DNA of 44,678 nt from Clostridia bacterium (GTDB lineage: Bacteria > Bacillota > Clostridia > Christensenellales > RUG350). Location: assembly GCA_017407285.1 (NCBI GenBank), contig JAFQWW010000063.1, positions 1-44,678 of the forward strand, read 5' to 3'. Every line of letters begins with the position of its first letter. Positions within the stretch are counted from its first letter, which is position 1. Positions 5,056 through 29,268 of this stretch are shown here, one piece after another. The notes beneath the pieces were generated by a model. It had not been told where the DNA came from. It saw nothing but the letters and a program-made list of their open reading frames with translations, and made no database searches. Position numbers and translations under genes: made by a program.

Positions 5056-5217
5056 AAATCAGATAGAGGCGCGACTTTTATGATAAACGCAAACGGGGAT
5101 TTAGTTTGCGCGGTAAAGGAAAAGTCGCCGAAGACAAAGTTTTCTCCCAAAAATCTTTGATCTGGGCGTACGAGAAATACTCGTGCGACTGTCATACTTC
5201 GGTGTGGTGAGCTATTG
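5056..5217 (+). ncRNA. Lysine riboswitch (L-box) aptamer
   Basis: Conserved L-box blocks appear in the right order and spacing: AGATAGAGGCGCGA near 5061-5074, AAAAGTCGCCGAAG near 5120-5133, CTGGGCGTACGAG near 5162-5174, GCGACTGTCAT near 5186-5196 and GTGAGCTATT near 5207-5216, which closes the basal P1 helix with the 5' block. It is followed by an intrinsic terminator, as expected for transcriptional control: when lysine binds, the terminator forms and the downstream transporter is shut off. Assigned from known consensus elements, not from a covariance-model search. The 420-base stretch between the phosphohexomutase and transporter genes is otherwise accounted for by two promoters and the terminator. 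Confidence 0.88.
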
Positions 5218-5235
5218 AATATTGGTCTTTTTCAG

Positions 5236-5302: not shown

Positions 5303-7051
5303 ATGGTAGAAAAGAAAAAACTTTTCACGGGTAGACGAATAACCTTGATCGTTGCATCAATAGTTATTCTCGCTCTACTCATCGTAGCCGTTGCAACGGG
5401 CGCAGTTTCTAACACTTTGGACTGTCCGGACTGTGATGGCGTTTGTCAAATCTGTGACGGTGCTCACGTATTAGAAGTGAGCGGTGCGGAGGTTGACTGT
5501 CCTAAGTGTTGTGAAACTTGTGGTGGCGAGGGCATGGTTCAAGGCTCTGCTTGGGCGCTTTTACCTGCAATTATTGCAATAGGTTTGGCTCTTATCACTC
5601 GTGAGGTATATTCCTCCCTATTCGTTGGTATTTTGTCGGGTGCTATTCTTGCATCGGGCTTCTCCTTCACGGGTACGGTGGATCACGTCGTAAACACGGG
5701 TATAGTTTCCGCAGTATCTGCAACCGCAGGTATATTCGTTTTCTTGGTAGAACTTGGAATAATCGTTGCTTTAGTTAATAAAGCAGGTGGATCTCGTGCT
5801 TTCGGTGAATGGGCAAAAACGCACATTAAGAGCAAGGTCGGCGCAGCTATTGCAACGTTCATATTGGGCGTATTGATATTTATCGACGACTACTTCAACT
5901 GCTTGACGGTTGGTTCAGTTATGCGCCCTGTAACGGACAAGCACAAAATCTCGCGTTCCAAACTTGCGTACATAATTGACGCGACTGCAGCGCCTATTTG
6001 TATGATAGCACCTATCTCTTCTTGGGCGGCAGCAGTTTCTCAGTACGCTGCAGACGGACAAGGCTTGCAACTCTTCATCGCTGCTATCCCCTTCAACTTC
6101 TACTCTCTCTTGACCTTGATTTTCGTAGTAGCTATCGCTCTTATGAAATTTGACTTCGGTCCTATGAAGAAACACGAAGAAAACGCAGAAAACGGAGATT
6201 TATTCTCTGGCAGTCAAGTTAAGGGAGAAGAATTTACTCCCAACCCCCGTGGTCGCGTTTTAGACTTGCTTATGCCTATTATCTTCTTGCTCGTAGCTTG
6301 TGTATTTGCACTCGTATACGTAGGCGGATTCTTCGGTCCTGATTATTGGGGTTATACGGATAACGTTGGAAACTTTATAGGCGCGTTTGGTAACACGGAC
6401 GCCACGGTTGCCCTACCTTGGGGTGGTCTCGTAGCCCTTGTTTTGAGTATTATCTATATGGCAATACGACGCGTCGTTTCCTTCAACGACTCCATGAAGA
6501 GTATTCCCTCTGGCTTTATCGCTATGGTTCCGGCAATTTTAATATTGACATTTGCAACGGCTTTGAAAAATATCACGGGCGAATTAGGCGCGAAGTTCTT
6601 CGTTGGATCTTTAGTCGCAGGCTTTGACCAAACTCTACTAAGTTTCTTACCTGCCGTTATATTCTTGATTGCGTGCGTGCTTGCCTTTGCAACGGGTACG
6701 AGTTGGGGAACCTTTGGTATATTGATACCTATAGTAAGCTCTATGTTCCCCGATCCTGCTAACCCCCTACTTATCGTATGTATGTCCGCGTGTTTGGCTG
6801 GTGCCGTATGTGGCGACCACTGCTCACCCATATCGGATACCACTATTATGTCGAGTGCGGGCGCGGAGTGCGAACACCTAAATCACGTATCCACTCAGCT
6901 TCCTTACGCTATATACGTTGCGGTTATATCATTTATATCCTTCCTTATCGCAGGATTTGTACCCAACGCACTTATCGCTTTGCCTATAAGCATTGTGTTG
7001 ATGATTGGTTCACTCTTTGTTACCCGTCATATCGTAAAACGCAAAGCGTAA
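5303..7051 (+). CDS. NhaC-family antiporter, predicted lysine transporter, with Cys-rich loop
   Basis: A 582-residue polytopic membrane protein of the NhaC/Na+:H+ antiporter family (ion transporter superfamily): about 12 hydrophobic segments, with signature stretches such as FIDDYFNCLTVGSVMRPV and SGAGAECEHLNH-type residues near the end. It sits behind a lysine riboswitch. NhaC-like genes under L-box control have been interpreted as lysine transporters in other bacteria, so lysine uptake is the likely role. Unusual: the loop after the first membrane segment carries eight Cys (about residues 41, 44, 48, 51, 66, 69, 70, 73) in CxxC pairs resembling a DnaJ-type zinc-binding module. AAAGGAG precedes the ATG and a strong terminator follows, so the gene is monocistronic. 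Confidence 0.88.
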   Translation: MVEKKKLFTGRRITLIVASIVILALLIVAVATGAVSNTLDCPDCDGVCQICDGAHVLEVSGAEVDCPKCCETCGGEGMVQGSAWALLPAIIAIGLALITREVYSSLFVGILSGAILASGFSFTGTVDHVVNTGIVSAVSATAGIFVFLVELGIIVALVNKAGGSRAFGEWAKTHIKSKVGAAIATFILGVLIFIDDYFNCLTVGSVMRPVTDKHKISRSKLAYIIDATAAPICMIAPISSWAAAVSQYAADGQGLQLFIAAIPFNFYSLLTLIFVVAIALMKFDFGPMKKHEENAENGDLFSGSQVKGEEFTPNPRGRVLDLLMPIIFLLVACVFALVYVGGFFGPDYWGYTDNVGNFIGAFGNTDATVALPWGGLVALVLSIIYMAIRRVVSFNDSMKSIPSGFIAMVPAILILTFATALKNITGELGAKFFVGSLVAGFDQTLLSFLPAVIFLIACVLAFATGTSWGTFGILIPIVSSMFPDPANPLLIVCMSACLAGAVCGDHCSPISDTTIMSSAGAECEHLNHVSTQLPYAIYVAVISFISFLIAGFVPNALIALPISIVLMIGSLFVTRHIVKRKA

Positions 7052-24321: not shown

Positions 24322-24347
24322 AACGGTGTTTTAGCACCGTTTTTATT
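24321..24347 (+). terminator. Terminator of the XRE gene
   Basis: AAACGGTG (24321-24328) with CACCGTTT (24335-24342), followed by a T-rich run. Confidence 0.8.
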
Positions 24348-24361
24348 TTACTCTTGGCTAA

Positions 24362-24393
24362 AAATAGTGCAAGCACTTTTCTCGTCAGAGCAA
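24362..24393. repeat. Direct repeat copy 1 (32 bp)
   Basis: Identical to 24483-24514, 121 bases away. It contains the small hairpin AGTGC-AA-GCACT. Between the copies lies non-coding sequence with a CAGTCGC motif repeated at 24427 and 24450. The 450-base gap from 24322 to 24771 otherwise holds only a terminator, these repeats and the tRNA-Val gene with its signals. Confidence 0.7.
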
Positions 24394-24482
24394 GGGCTAT
24401 ATCTCCACTTCGTTTCGATGTTGCCCAGTCGCTCGCCAAATACTCCGTGCAGTCGCATTGCATTTATTTCGCTCTTTCTTCG

Positions 24483-24514
24483 AAATAGTGCAAGCACTTT
24501 TCTCGTCAGAGCAA
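24483..24514. repeat. Direct repeat copy 2 (32 bp)
   Basis: Second exact copy of the 24362-24393 repeat, lying immediately beyond the tRNA-Val terminator. Confidence 0.7.
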
Positions 24515-24549: not shown

Positions 24550-24625
24550 TGGTGGGCAATAAGGGACTCGAACCCCTGACTTTCTCCACGTCAAGAAGAC
24601 ACTCTCCCAACTGAGTTAATTGCCC
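24550..24625 (-). tRNA. tRNA-Val (anticodon GAC)
   Basis: A complete 76-nt cloverleaf on the minus strand: acceptor GGGCAAT/ATTGCCC, D-arm ACTC...GAGT with GG in the loop, anticodon stem TCTTC/GGAGA with loop TTGACGT (anticodon GAC, reads GUC/GUU valine codons), and T-arm with TTCGAGT loop. The 3' CCA is encoded (24550-24552). A TTGACA/TAAACT promoter and an intrinsic terminator flank it, so it is a single-gene transcript. Confidence 0.95.
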
Positions 24626-24771: not shown

Positions 24772-27700
24772 TTACAACTGATTATTCAAAGCGGGAATGA
24801 CGCCGCTATTAGCGCTAACGGGGGTGCTGCTGACATAGCCATCGTCATGGACGTAATAGGCGTAAAAATCGTAGTCCGCACTAGGAGAACGCAACCACCA
24901 CACGCCGTTGCCGTAATAGGAAGTAGAGGTACTCATCCACACACCAGTCGCTCTTGAGTAGTCCGTGGTTTGTATTCGTCTTGCGATATCATAATAACTC
25001 ATACTAAATCCGTAGTCGGAGTTAAATACTTCTCGATAACTCATTAAAAAGACTTTATCAAAGGTGTTCTCACATGCATATTCATTAGTACTGCTATGCG
25101 TCGTGGATGCAGAGTTATCTACCTTGGTGGTTCTGATAAGGGACTGTTGCAAGGTAGTAAACGCCGTGTTATAGAACTTTGCGTTTAACCATGCACGGAT
25201 ATCACTGTTTGCGTAATTACTATTATAAGAGTCATACGCTTTATTTGCTATTATGCTCTCGCATAATATGAGTGCTTCTCCCTCACTCTCACTGAGTATA
25301 CGCCATTTGATTGGCTCGACCTTAAAGTAGTACGTAGTGCCTTCTACAACGCTATCTCCTGTGGAGAAGGTATAACTAGAACTAAACGGATCTGCTACGA
25401 CTTTTGCATACAATGCTCCGTCAGAACCGGAGTAATAGCCCTCTGACGTTCGAGTGCTCTCGTCTATAGTAACGGACTCTGATTTTAATGTTTGAGGATA
25501 GGAACCAAAGTAGATATAGTCTCCCTCTCTTATGTATAAAATTGAACCATATGCTTGACCACAAACGGTGCAAACTGCTCTGCCCATTTCAATTGCAGTT
25601 CCACCACTGTGCACCTCTACGTTGTTCTTTTCTCCACAACTACACTCGTACCAATGATTGTTTTCGTCATACTTTAGAGTTGCATAGTTATGGGTATGCG
25701 CAGGAGGCATATAATCCAGCTGAATATTCAAAGCGGGAACGACGCCGTAATCAGTGCGGGAAACGCGCACACTACCGTTGAAATAGCCATCGTAATTGAT
25801 GCCAGAGGCGTACTGGTGGAAGTAGTCGTACTCCGCACTAGGAGAACGCAACCACCATACTCCATTGCCATAATGGGAGGTGGTACCCATCAACACACCA
25901 GTCGCTCTTGAGTAGTCCGTAGTTTGTCTTCGTCTTGGGGTTTCATAAGTACTATAACTCGTACGAAATCCGTAGTTGGGGTTGATCATATCTTGATAAC
26001 TCATCAAAAATACTTTATCAAAGGTGTTCTCACATGCAGATTCATTGGTGCTGCTACCAGTCGTGGATGCAGAGTTATCTACCTTGGTGGTTCTGATAAG
26101 GGACTGTTGCAAGGTAGTAAACGCAGTGTTATAGAACTCTGCGTTTAACCAAGCACGAATAGCACTGTTTTTGTAATTATTATAACCAGCAGCATACGCT
26201 TTATTTGCTAGTATGCTCTCGCATAGTATTAGCGCTTCTCCCTTACTTTCACTGAGTATCCGCCATTTAATAGGTTCAACCTTAAAGTAGTACGTAGTGC
26301 CTCTTACAACGCTCTCTCCTGTGGAGAAGGTATAACTAGAACCAGAACCATACGGATCTGCTACGACTTTTGCATACAACGCTCCATCGGAACCTAAATA
26401 ATATCCATCTACCGTTTGAGCACTCTCGTCTATAGTAACGGACTCAAATTTTAAGGTTTGAGGATAGGAGCCAAAGTAGATGTAATCACCGTCTCTTACG
26501 TACGTAGTAGAATCTTCTATTTCTATTATCTTCCACTTTGCGGTTAATTCTTTATCAGTAGCGTAATTCCATTTTGATAGAGATTTACCAGTTTCATTCG
26601 TTATTTGAGTATTGCCATAATACCAACCTCCAAAATCACAACCCTCTCTTGTGGGAATAGGCAAGGTAAATTCCGTATCGTAGGTTACACTTTGCGTATT
26701 TTGCGACAAAGGTTCACCACCATTTACGTTTAAGGTCACGATGTACTCGTGCGCAACATCCAACTGAATATTCAAAGCAGGAACGACGCCGTAATAAGTG
26801 CGGGAAACATCGCCGTTGCTGACGCAGCCATCGTAATAAACGAAAGAGGCACTATAGTTGCTGTATACAGTAGAAGAACGCAACCACCACCCTCCATTGC
26901 CGTAATAGGAAGTGGAGGTGTCAATATACGCACCAGTCGCTCTTGAGTAGTCCGTGGTTTGTCTTCGTCTTGCCGTATCATAAGTACTAGAACTCGTACT
27001 AAATCCGTAGTCGGATTTTAGCATTTCTTGATAACTCATTAAAAAGACTTTATCATCGGTGGTTTTGATAAGAGACTGTTGCAAGGTAGTAAACGCCGTG
27101 TTATAAAACTCTGCGTTTAGCCATGCGCGAATATCACTAGCCGTGTATTTATTATCTCCACTAGTATCATACGCTTTATTTGCTAATATGCTCTCGCATA
27201 ATATGAGTGCCTCTCCCTCACTCTCACTGAGTATACGCCATTTGATAGGCTCAACCTTAAAGTAGTACGTAGTGCCTTCTATAACGTTATCTCCTGTGGA
27301 GAAGGTATAACCATACGCATACGGATCTGATACCACTTTTGCGTATAACGCTCCGTCAGAGCCTAAATAATAGCCCTCTGACGTTTGAGTGCTCTCGTCT
27401 ATAGTGACGGACTCAGATTTTAAGGTCTGAGGATAGAAACCAAAGTAGATATAGTCTCCCTCTATTACGTACGTAGTAGAACCTCCTATCTTCCACTTTG
27501 CGGTTAACTCTATATCGCTAGTATAATTCCAGTTTGATAGATATTCACCAGTTTCATCCGTGATTTGAATATCTCCGTAATACCAACCTATAAATTCGCA
27601 ACCCTCTCTTGTAGGTGTAGGTAAGGTAAATTCCGTGTCGAAAGTTACTTTTTGCGTATTTTGAGATAAAGCATCACCACCATTTACGTTCAAGGTCACG

Positions 27701-29268
27701 GTATACTCAGGAACGCGCTCCAAAGTTGAGCCGTATGCTTGATTACACACGGTACAAACTGCTCTATCCGTCTCCGTAGCAGTACCACCACTGTGTCCTT
27801 CTACGTTCTCTTTTTCTCCACAACTACACTCGTACCAATGGTTGTTTTCGTCATACTTGCGCGTTGCATAGTTATGGGTGTGCTCCAACGTTGTACCGTA
27901 TGCTTGACCACAAACAGTACAAACTGCTCTGTCCATCTCCGTTGCAGTACCGCCACTGTGTACCTCTACGTTGCTTTTCTCTCCGCAACTACACTCATAC
28001 CAGTGATTGTTTTCGTCATACTTGAGCGTTGTGTAAGCGTGAGTATGCGCAGGAGGCATATAATCTAACTGAATATTCAAAGCGGGAACGACGCCGAAAT
28101 CAGTGATGTAAACGTTGTGGTAGCCGACGTAACCACCGTAATAGACGATAGAGGCGAGATAGTAGTCGAGAGAATAAGGAGAACGCAACCACCAATATCC
28201 GTTGCCGTAATAGGAAGTGGAGGTATTCATCCACGCACCAGTCGCTCTTGAGTAGTCCGTGGGTTGTCTCTCTCTTGCTACGTCACCATCATTACTCGTA
28301 CTAAATCCGTAGTCGGGGTTTAGCATTTCTTGATAACTCATCAAAAAGACTTTATCAAAGGTGTTCTCACATGCATATTGATTAGTACTACTACTTGTCG
28401 TGGATGCAGAATTATCTACCTCGGTGGTTTTGATAAGGGACTGTTGCAAGGTAGTAAACGCCGTGTTATAGAACTCTGCGTTTAACCATGCGCGAATATC
28501 ACTTTCTTTGTAATTATTATTATAACCAGCGTCATACGCTTTATTTGCTAATATACTCTCGCATAATATTAGCGCTTCTCCCTCACTCTCACTGAGTATA
28601 CGCCATTTAATAGGCTCAACCTTAAAGTAGTACGTTGTGCCGTCTACAACGCTCCCTCCTGTGGAGAAGGTATAATTAGAACCATCCGGATCTGCTACAA
28701 CTTTTGCATACAAAGCGCCATCGGAACCGAAGTAATAGCCCTCTGCCGTTTGAGTGCTCTCATCTATAGTAACGGACTCAGATTTTAAGGTTTGAGGATA
28801 GGAACCAAAGTAGATGTAATCACCGTCTCTTACGTACAAAGTTGTGCCGTATGCTTGATTACAAACGGTACAAACTGCTCTGTCCGTCTCCGTTGCAGTA
28901 CCGCCCTTGTGTCCTTCTACGTTGTTCTTTTCTCCACAACTGCACTCGTACCAATGGTTGTTTTCATCATACTTGAGAGTTGCATAGTTATGGGTATGAC
29001 CTAAAGTTGTACCATATGCTTGATTACAAATGGTACAAACTGCTCTGTCCGTCTCCGTTGCAGTACCGCCCTTATGTGCCTCTACGTTGCTTTTCTCCCC
29101 GCAACTACACTCGTACCAATGGTTGTTTTCGTCATACTTGAGAGTTGCATAGTTATGAACGTGGTCTGGAGGCGTGGTGCCACCGTCTGGTTCGCTACAA
29201 GCCGTAAACACACCGACCGCTAAACATATAGCAAGTACTATAAGCATTACTTTTAAAACCTTTTTCAT
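24772..29268 (-). CDS. Large modular surface lipoprotein with DUF6273-like, Cys-rich and InlB-type repeats
   Basis: A 1498-residue protein. A lipoprotein signal (hydrophobic run, then FTAC with Cys about 24) places it outside the membrane. Modules in order, approximate residues: two Cys-rich repeats (35-142; HNYATLKYDENNHWYECSCG pattern), DUF6273-like module 1 (146-405), two more Cys-rich repeats (406-517), an InlB/Listeria-Bacteroides repeat (518-595), module 2 (600-835), a second InlB repeat (838-916), module 3 (920-1188), a fifth Cys-rich repeat (1190-1243) and module 4 (1245-1498). Each DUF6273-like module runs from GDYIYFGxYPQTLK through IKWRILSESEGEALILCES, IRAWLNAEFYNTAF, DKVFLMSY and WWLRS to PALN. 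The segment after WWLRS is strongly variable. There is no sortase motif. Adhesion or ligand binding is plausible but unproven. Confidence 0.88.
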   Translation of the reverse strand: MKKVLKVMLIVLAICLAVGVFTACSEPDGGTTPPDHVHNYATLKYDENNHWYECSCGEKSNVEAHKGGTATETDRAVCTICNQAYGTTLGHTHNYATLKYDENNHWYECSCGEKNNVEGHKGGTATETDRAVCTVCNQAYGTTLYVRDGDYIYFGSYPQTLKSESVTIDESTQTAEGYYFGSDGALYAKVVADPDGSNYTFSTGGSVVDGTTYYFKVEPIKWRILSESEGEALILCESILANKAYDAGYNNNYKESDIRAWLNAEFYNTAFTTLQQSLIKTTEVDNSASTTSSSTNQYACENTFDKVFLMSYQEMLNPDYGFSTSNDGDVARERQPTDYSRATGAWMNTSTSYYGNGYWWLRSPYSLDYYLASIVYYGGYVGYHNVYITDFGVVPALNIQLDYMPPAHTHAYTTLKYDENNHWYECSCGEKSNVEVHSGGTATEMDRAVCTVCGQAYGTTLEHTHNYATRKYDENNHWYECSCGEKENVEGHSGGTATETDRAVCTVCNQAYGSTLERVPEYTVTLNVNGGDALSQNTQKVTFDTEFTLPTPTREGCEFIGWYYGDIQITDETGEYLSNWNYTSDIELTAKWKIGGSTTYVIEGDYIYFGFYPQTLKSESVTIDESTQTSEGYYLGSDGALYAKVVSDPYAYGYTFSTGDNVIEGTTYYFKVEPIKWRILSESEGEALILCESILANKAYDTSGDNKYTASDIRAWLNAEFYNTAFTTLQQSLIKTTDDKVFLMSYQEMLKSDYGFSTSSSTYDTARRRQTTDYSRATGAYIDTSTSYYGNGGWWLRSSTVYSNYSASFVYYDGCVSNGDVSRTYYGVVPALNIQLDVAHEYIVTLNVNGGEPLSQNTQSVTYDTEFTLPIPTREGCDFGGWYYGNTQITNETGKSLSKWNYATDKELTAKWKIIEIEDSTTYVRDGDYIYFGSYPQTLKFESVTIDESAQTVDGYYLGSDGALYAKVVADPYGSGSSYTFSTGESVVRGTTYYFKVEPIKWRILSESKGEALILCESILANKAYAAGYNNYKNSAIRAWLNAEFYNTAFTTLQQSLIRTTKVDNSASTTGSSTNESACENTFDKVFLMSYQDMINPNYGFRTSYSTYETPRRRQTTDYSRATGVLMGTTSHYGNGVWWLRSPSAEYDYFHQYASGINYDGYFNGSVRVSRTDYGVVPALNIQLDYMPPAHTHNYATLKYDENNHWYECSCGEKNNVEVHSGGTAIEMGRAVCTVCGQAYGSILYIREGDYIYFGSYPQTLKSESVTIDESTRTSEGYYSGSDGALYAKVVADPFSSSYTFSTGDSVVEGTTYYFKVEPIKWRILSESEGEALILCESIIANKAYDSYNSNYANSDIRAWLNAKFYNTAFTTLQQSLIRTTKVDNSASTTHSSTNEYACENTFDKVFLMSYREVFNSDYGFSMSYYDIARRIQTTDYSRATGVWMSTSTSYYGNGVWWLRSPSADYDFYAYYVHDDGYVSSTPVSANSGVIPALNNQL
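24785..24900 (-). repeat. Variable segment of DUF6273-like module 4
   Basis: Region between the conserved WWLRS and PALN codons in the C-terminal module, with variable codons such as AGC, ACC, CCC and GCT against conserved flanks; compare the three other modules. The module ends the gene directly. Confidence 0.6.
25735..25860 (-). repeat. Variable segment of DUF6273-like module 3
   Basis: Same position as in the other modules, but longer by several codons (YFHQYASGINYDGYFNGSVR), between conserved WWLRSP and VVPALN. Confidence 0.6.
26770..26890 (-). repeat. Variable segment of DUF6273-like module 2
   Basis: Between WWLRSS and VVPALN. This module also lacks the roughly 20-residue VDNSAS...ACENTF stretch found before DKVFLMSY in the other three. 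Confidence 0.6.
28078..28196 (-). repeat. Variable segment of DUF6273-like module 1
   Basis: Between WWLRSP and VVPALN in the first module; variable codons include GGC, TAC, CAC, AAC, TAC, ATC and TTC where other modules carry different first and second bases but again a pyrimidine in the third position. Confidence 0.6.

Follow-up and report, generated by a model that had tools for sequence, protein, structure and literature searches.

Hypervariable regions resembling diversity-generating retroelement targets in a four-module DUF6273 lipoprotein of a Clostridia bacterium

Introduction

In Faecalibacterium prophages, the variable regions (VRs) of diversity-generating retroelements (DGRs) map to the C-terminus of DUF6273 proteins (PMC11792537), and in the tentaclins this domain has a C-type-lectin fold, the VR forming a hairpin at the surface (PMC10743442). 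Treponema denticola isolates have been described in which lipoprotein targets are left over without a reverse transcriptase (RT) or a template repeat (TR) (PMC4891356), and DGRs 4 and 5 of Thiohalocapsa PB-PSB1 act in trans on targets with three tandem CLec VR domains (PMC10907252). Tandem VR-bearing lectin domains and trans-acting DGRs (PMC10907252), as well as orphan lipoprotein targets (PMC4891356), are therefore already known.

Here we analyse a stretch of 44,678 nucleotides (the window), contig C33 in the metagenome-type assembly of a gut-type Clostridia bacterium (1.19 Mb, 85 contigs, 84% complete). An original prediction, made from the nucleotide sequence, held that four hypervariable segments within one gene of this window descend from, or still receive, DGR-type mutagenesis. 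We compared the gene with the DGRs of related genomes and with readings of its variability that involve no DGR in this host.

A lipoprotein with four DUF6273 modules

The gene lies on the minus strand at 24772-29268, identified by its open reading frame and Pfam matches, and encodes a protein of 1498 amino acids with an N-terminal signal and lipobox read off the sequence (MKKVLKVMLIVLAICLAVGVFTAC). Pfam assigns it four DUF6273 domains (PF19789, E 3.5e-81) and two List_Bact/Flg_new repeats (PF09479), and each of the four modules passes the DUF6273 gathering cut-off of 23.5 bits with 58-91 bits. The modules share ~78% pairwise identity and lie, all on the minus strand, at 28069-28821 (M1), 26764-27456 (M2, which lacks a 21-codon VDNSAS..ENTF loop), 25720-26487 (M3) and 24775-25521 (M4, the C-terminal module), with a List_Bact/Flg_new repeat between M1 and M2 (27496-27705, minus strand, by Pfam). 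Among PHROGs, the module has a match to a group of Hoc-like head decoration proteins.

Several copies of a Cys/His-rich spacer unit with a metal-binding-like appearance (HxHxYxTLKYDENNHWYECSCGEKxNVExHxGGTATExxRAVCTVCxQAYG) are spread over window positions ~25542-29230. Pfam gives these HxxxYDENNHWYECSCGEK-type units a weak FmdE zinc-finger match only, and they recur in paralogues on contigs C36 and C55 of the same genome. In the gap 3' of the gene there is a 52-nt direct repeat, 87% identical between its copies at 24342-24393 and 24463-24514, which sits just downstream of a tRNA-Val(gac) at 24550-24625 on the minus strand. Elsewhere in the window, a lysine riboswitch (Rfam RF00168, 86.7 bits) at 5056-5222 on the plus strand precedes the open reading frame at 5303-7051.

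An AlphaFold model of M4, built from 11 sequences with a pLDDT of 75, found its best structural match in the DUF6273 domain of an IgA peptidase (PDB 9qa6; Z 14.2, rmsd 3.0, 163 aligned residues, 25% identity). The other matches are modest, most at Z 4-7, and include the T. denticola DGR variable protein TvpA (variable protein 1, 2y3c; Z 6.6 by VIA-align), several C-type lectins (Z 5-6) and Mtd (1yu1; Z 4.1). From the DUF6273 assignment, this model and the literature, the four variable regions sit in a domain of C-type-lectin fold; DGR variable regions lie in domains of this fold or in Ig-like ones.

Hypervariability and codon composition of the variable regions

The four WWLRS...PALN segments named in the original prediction are present on the minus strand at 28075-28194, 26770-26889, 25726-25857 and 24784-24900, with 27-32 codons between WWLRS and the GVVPALN motif. 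The VRs themselves span, on the minus strand, 28096-28179 in M1 (28 codons, of which all 28 are NNY), 26791-26874 in M2 (28 codons, 27 NNY), 25747-25842 in M3 (32 codons, 28 NNY, including a 3-codon insert around which the alignment is uncertain) and 24805-24885 in M4 (27 codons, 26 NNY). Each is followed by a conserved block of the GVxPALN type, at 24784-24804 on the minus strand in M4 (GVIPALN, GGCGTCATTCCCGCTTTGAAT), 25726-25746 in M3, 26770-26790 in M2 and 28075-28095 in M1, likewise on the minus strand. This is the place of the IMH in a DGR, and from its position after the VR the block may act as one.

The codon columns quoted in the prediction, including AAT/GAC/GGT/AGT upstream of the motif, recur in our codon alignment, and the modules are indeed conserved apart from the variable codons: first and second codon positions vary at 38 of 56 sites in the VR (68%) and at 69 of 416 in the rest of the module (17%; Fisher P = 8e-15, to be read, like the other P values here, as a guide, since codon and pair counts treat codons as independent and those of four duplicated modules are not). 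The minimum number of changes at positions 1 and 2 relative to position 3 is 55:12 in the VR and 76:79 elsewhere (P = 3e-6). Hypervariability in M1-M4 is thus confined to the first two positions of NNY codons, as in DGR variable regions. The kind of change differs as well, with a transition to transversion ratio at these positions of 55:89 (0.62) in the VR versus 132:91 (1.45) in the rest, and with at least three states at 16 of 38 variable sites in the VR versus 7 of 69 outside it (P = 4e-4).

Codons ending in a pyrimidine make up 94.8% of the VRs (109/115), compared with 58.8% of the rest of the modules and 55.9% of the neighbouring genes. With each codon counted once per column, and only codons with an NNR option included, 34 of 37 VR codons are NNY, where 25.3 are expected from the usage of neighbouring genes (P = 3.5e-4) and 23.1 from that of the modules themselves (P = 5e-6). 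The excess is absent from the other amino-acid-variable columns of M1-M4 (40 of 77 NNY, 43-49 expected), and the VRs of DUF6273 paralogues on contigs C79 and C43 of the same genome have only 43 NNY codons among 61.

What did not hold is the extra constancy of the third base that DGR copying would leave. The original prediction described positions 1 and 2 as variable and the third-base pyrimidine as kept; the pyrimidine composition and the turnover at positions 1 and 2 bear this out, but among NNY pairs the third base mismatches in 28 of 153 cases (18%) in the VRs and in 83 of 557 (15%) in the rest. The VRs of M1-M4 are therefore not identical at third bases beyond background, and third-base constancy was rejected as a proof of DGR action in these modules. 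Because third bases drift equally in the VRs and around them, it seems that no single template has served to rewrite all four heads after the module duplication, which favours past or infrequent DGR activity; background-like drift would also be expected if several templates rewrote the VRs. M2 and M3 share a partial VR stretch, as do M3 and M4, the first VR codons being common to the latter two, and the VRs include indels. Such partial sharing and indels are not products of a DGR and count against one.

Homologous variable regions in DGRs of the same order

Of 200 genomes from the same order, 86 carry DUF6273, and an RVT_1 reverse transcriptase occurs in 43. Five of these genomes yielded six TR/VR pairs next to an RT, two of the pairs in a single genome; a DUF6273 gene adjoins the RT each time, and the mismatches fall almost only at template adenines. 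In the three targets that were aligned with M1-M4, every AAY codon of the template lies on a column that varies among the modules (13/13, 14/14 and 9/9; P = 0.0009, 0.007 and 0.012), and hardly any of the invariant columns (WLRS, G, V, GV.PAL) has an adenine in the three templates. Because the AAY codons fall on the variable columns and almost all invariant columns lack adenine, we regard the variable patch of M1-M4 as a homologue of VRs with a proven DGR pattern. Template adenines in these relatives changed to G in 18 cases and to C or T in 26, a ratio that resembles the 55:89 of our VRs. A scan of RT loci also turned up four further loci with clear DGR TR/VR pairs in same-order or relative genomes.

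Search for a reverse transcriptase and a template

As its own check, the original prediction had named a DGR RT and an AAY-codon template elsewhere in the genome; neither was found in the 84%-complete assembly. An RVT_1 profile search, which finds the RTs of the 43 order genomes, returned no match in the assembled part of this genome, nor in two genomes of the same family (94% and 97% complete); the genus itself comprises this one genome only. Template searches of the genome by blastn with a VR, by an IMH-like pattern, by an N-rich template-like peptide and by an AAY pattern found no TR; their matches were confined to the four modules, to paralogues of the VRs and to a remnant on contig C40. 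A strict AAY pattern, which requires a final TTG and would miss known TRs of the order, gave no match in the two same-family genomes, 396 genomes of the order or viral contigs. A looser pattern gave one match in the viral contigs, in a phage structural-type gene, which was judged to be chance. In a test for remote templates, RT loci were compared with the DUF6273 VRs of the same genome in nine genomes, and no match was found. One of the nine (G174; 0.9 Mb, 99% complete) has 14 DUF6273 matches, several of them at contig ends, and a single RT, on its contig C23, near which the scan found no template. With 16% of our genome missing, the absence of RT and TR is suggestive and not final. Since these two defining features were sought and not found, we do not file M1-M4 as a proven DGR of their own genome.

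Template-like copying in genomes without a detectable reverse transcriptase

The NNY signature is present in DUF6273 genes of six near-complete genomes without a detectable RT, among them G017 (100% complete), and it is absent from many other DUF6273 genes. G017 has four DUF6273 genes on three contigs, and the third base of NNY pairs mismatches in 16 of 162 cases in their VRs versus 183 of 596 in the rest of the domain. Two of them, L129 (G017:C25:55080) and L132 (G017:C9:2274), the latter a TIR_2-DUF6273 fusion, show no third-base difference over 29 VR codons and 0.48 differences per site at positions 1 and 2, while 41% of the domain's third bases differ outside the VR. This is the pattern left when genes are copied from a common template and mutated at AAY codons. 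The shared VR skeleton, CCC NNC NNT NNT NNT AGT NNC NNC GCG CGT TTC GTC NNC NNC TAT GGC ... ACT NNT NNC GGY GTY GTY CCC GCT, implies such a template. In the G017 assembly, no RT and no template matching the queries used were found; G084, of the same genus, has a related DGR with a different template.

A broader reading is that chromosomal DUF6273 sensors in several families of this Clostridia order, surface lipoproteins and cytoplasmic TIR fusions alike, have DGR-diversified tips that are rewritten, in hosts without RT or TR, in trans by a DGR core on an unbinned mobile element or phage. We consider this generalization quite improbable as it stands.

Paralogues and domain shuffling within the genome

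Contigs C36, C55, C79 and C43 all end within genes of the same lipoprotein family. The family is therefore multi-copy, its repeats breaking the assembly, and further VR-bearing copies may be unassembled. On contig C40, positions 1343-1375 (GGTATCGTTCCTGCTTTGAATATTTTGTTGTAA) directly follow the stop codon of a BspA-like leucine-rich-repeat open reading frame. They read like what is left of the end of a DUF6273 gene (GIVPALNILL*), and it looks as though the leucine-rich-repeat domain took the place of a DUF6273 domain.

Origin of the variable regions

We propose, with a probability of roughly 60%, that the changes in the VRs were made by DGR mutagenic retrohoming, largely as a past event or through remote machinery. 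Under this proposal, a surface lipoprotein would display four binding heads of C-type-lectin fold (the DUF6273 modules), and a DGR would have randomised the tip of each head, some 28 codons from WWLRS to GVVPALN. Adenines of AAY template codons would be turned into random bases, giving NNC or NNT codons, and the copy would then replace the resident sequence. The RT and template could lie in the missing 16% of the genome, could be carried by a mobile element that acts in trans, or could have been lost. The NNY excess, the low transition to transversion ratio and the coincidence with AAY columns of same-order DGRs match the predicted DGR-type mutagenesis; the lack of an RT or TR and the background level of third-base drift weigh on the other side. 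Of the two options in that prediction, descent from DGR mutagenesis is favoured, whereas nothing points to a recent rewriting from a shared template, as continued mutagenesis would suggest. M1-M4 are best taken as an orphan or remote DGR target that has probably not been rewritten recently.

The main rival, which we consider somewhat unlikely, is that no DGR was involved and that, once the modules had been duplicated in tandem, diversifying selection of a strong and fluctuating kind acted on a lectin-like ligand-binding face, whose codons shifted among NAY, AGY and TGY through positions 1 and 2 while slower turnover at position 3 kept the pyrimidine. Selection alone predicts what the third bases show, namely background drift alongside accelerated positions 1 and 2, and it fits a genome without a detected RT or TR as well as the many RT-less genomes with DUF6273 genes, some with VRs that lack an NNY excess. 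It does not readily predict an NNY excess that the modules' other variable loops do not show. The shift in transition to transversion ratio, the many three-state sites, the alignment of variable columns with AAY codons in the templates of relatives, and the template-like third-base identity of the VRs in the related genome G017 also speak against it.

It is also possible, though improbable, that a DGR working on other genes, phages or strains produced the diversity of the VRs, which then entered this repeat-rich lipoprotein family in blocks by recombination, in a host that never had a DGR. A multi-copy family with contig breaks within homologous genes, the domain shuffling visible on C40, the first VR codons common to M3 and M4, and the lack of any DUF6273 match in both same-family genomes are all consistent with import. 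A close donor, however, was not found: the nearest relatives reach 50-54% identity in genome contigs and 25% in phages, and viral contigs yielded none. Finally, that the pyrimidine endings merely mirror a gene or genome preference in encoding Tyr, Ser and Gly-type residues is extremely improbable, for although amino acids with twofold NNY codons (Y, N, D, S) are common in the VRs, this source of the excess is ruled out by the 34 NNY codons among 37 with a choice, and the paralogues of the same genome do not share the bias.

If DGR mutagenesis is indeed the source, a single cell-surface protein bears four independently randomised binding tips, and a related class of DUF6273 sensors, including a TIR protein that resembles a defence sensor, would also have been diversified from a template in near-complete genomes in which no RT is detectable. 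This raises the question whether mobile elements supply DGR machinery that acts in trans on host genes, or whether such machinery is lost time and again once it has acted. Surveys anchored on the RT miss such targets, which a test of NNY composition can find without it.

Comparison with known systems

In the literature searched, we found neither a chromosomal lipoprotein with four DUF6273 modules like this one nor template-copied DUF6273 or TIR genes in a near-complete genome without an RT. The DGR targets of the Faecalibacterium prophages Lelie, CP11, Roos and Pioen and the tentaclins resemble M1-M4 in Pfam domain, C-terminal VR and C-type-lectin fold; however, they are phage virion proteins beside an RT and TR, whereas the lipoprotein is chromosomal and has four modules, and its RT and TR were not found. 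The N-terminal DUF6273 of the Thomasclavelia ramosa IgA peptidase (PDB 9qa6, PMC12402451) is the same domain as our modules but is part of a protease, and the portion of that report drawn on here mentions no hypervariation.

Targets of the TvpA type in T. denticola (PMC4891356) are likewise surface lipoproteins with a VR of C-type-lectin fold, and some are remote from their machinery. They differ in belonging to another sequence family and another phylum, and in having a template known from sister strains, where none was found for M1-M4. In Thiohalocapsa PB-PSB1 (PMC10907252) the VRs match a genomic TR at all non-A sites, while our lipoprotein is without a detected TR, and the domain and organism differ. 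That system nevertheless offers a precedent for what the original prediction correctly placed in our window, namely several VRs inside one gene: its targets carry several VRs per protein, as do M1-M4, and include TIR-linked proteins, as in G017.
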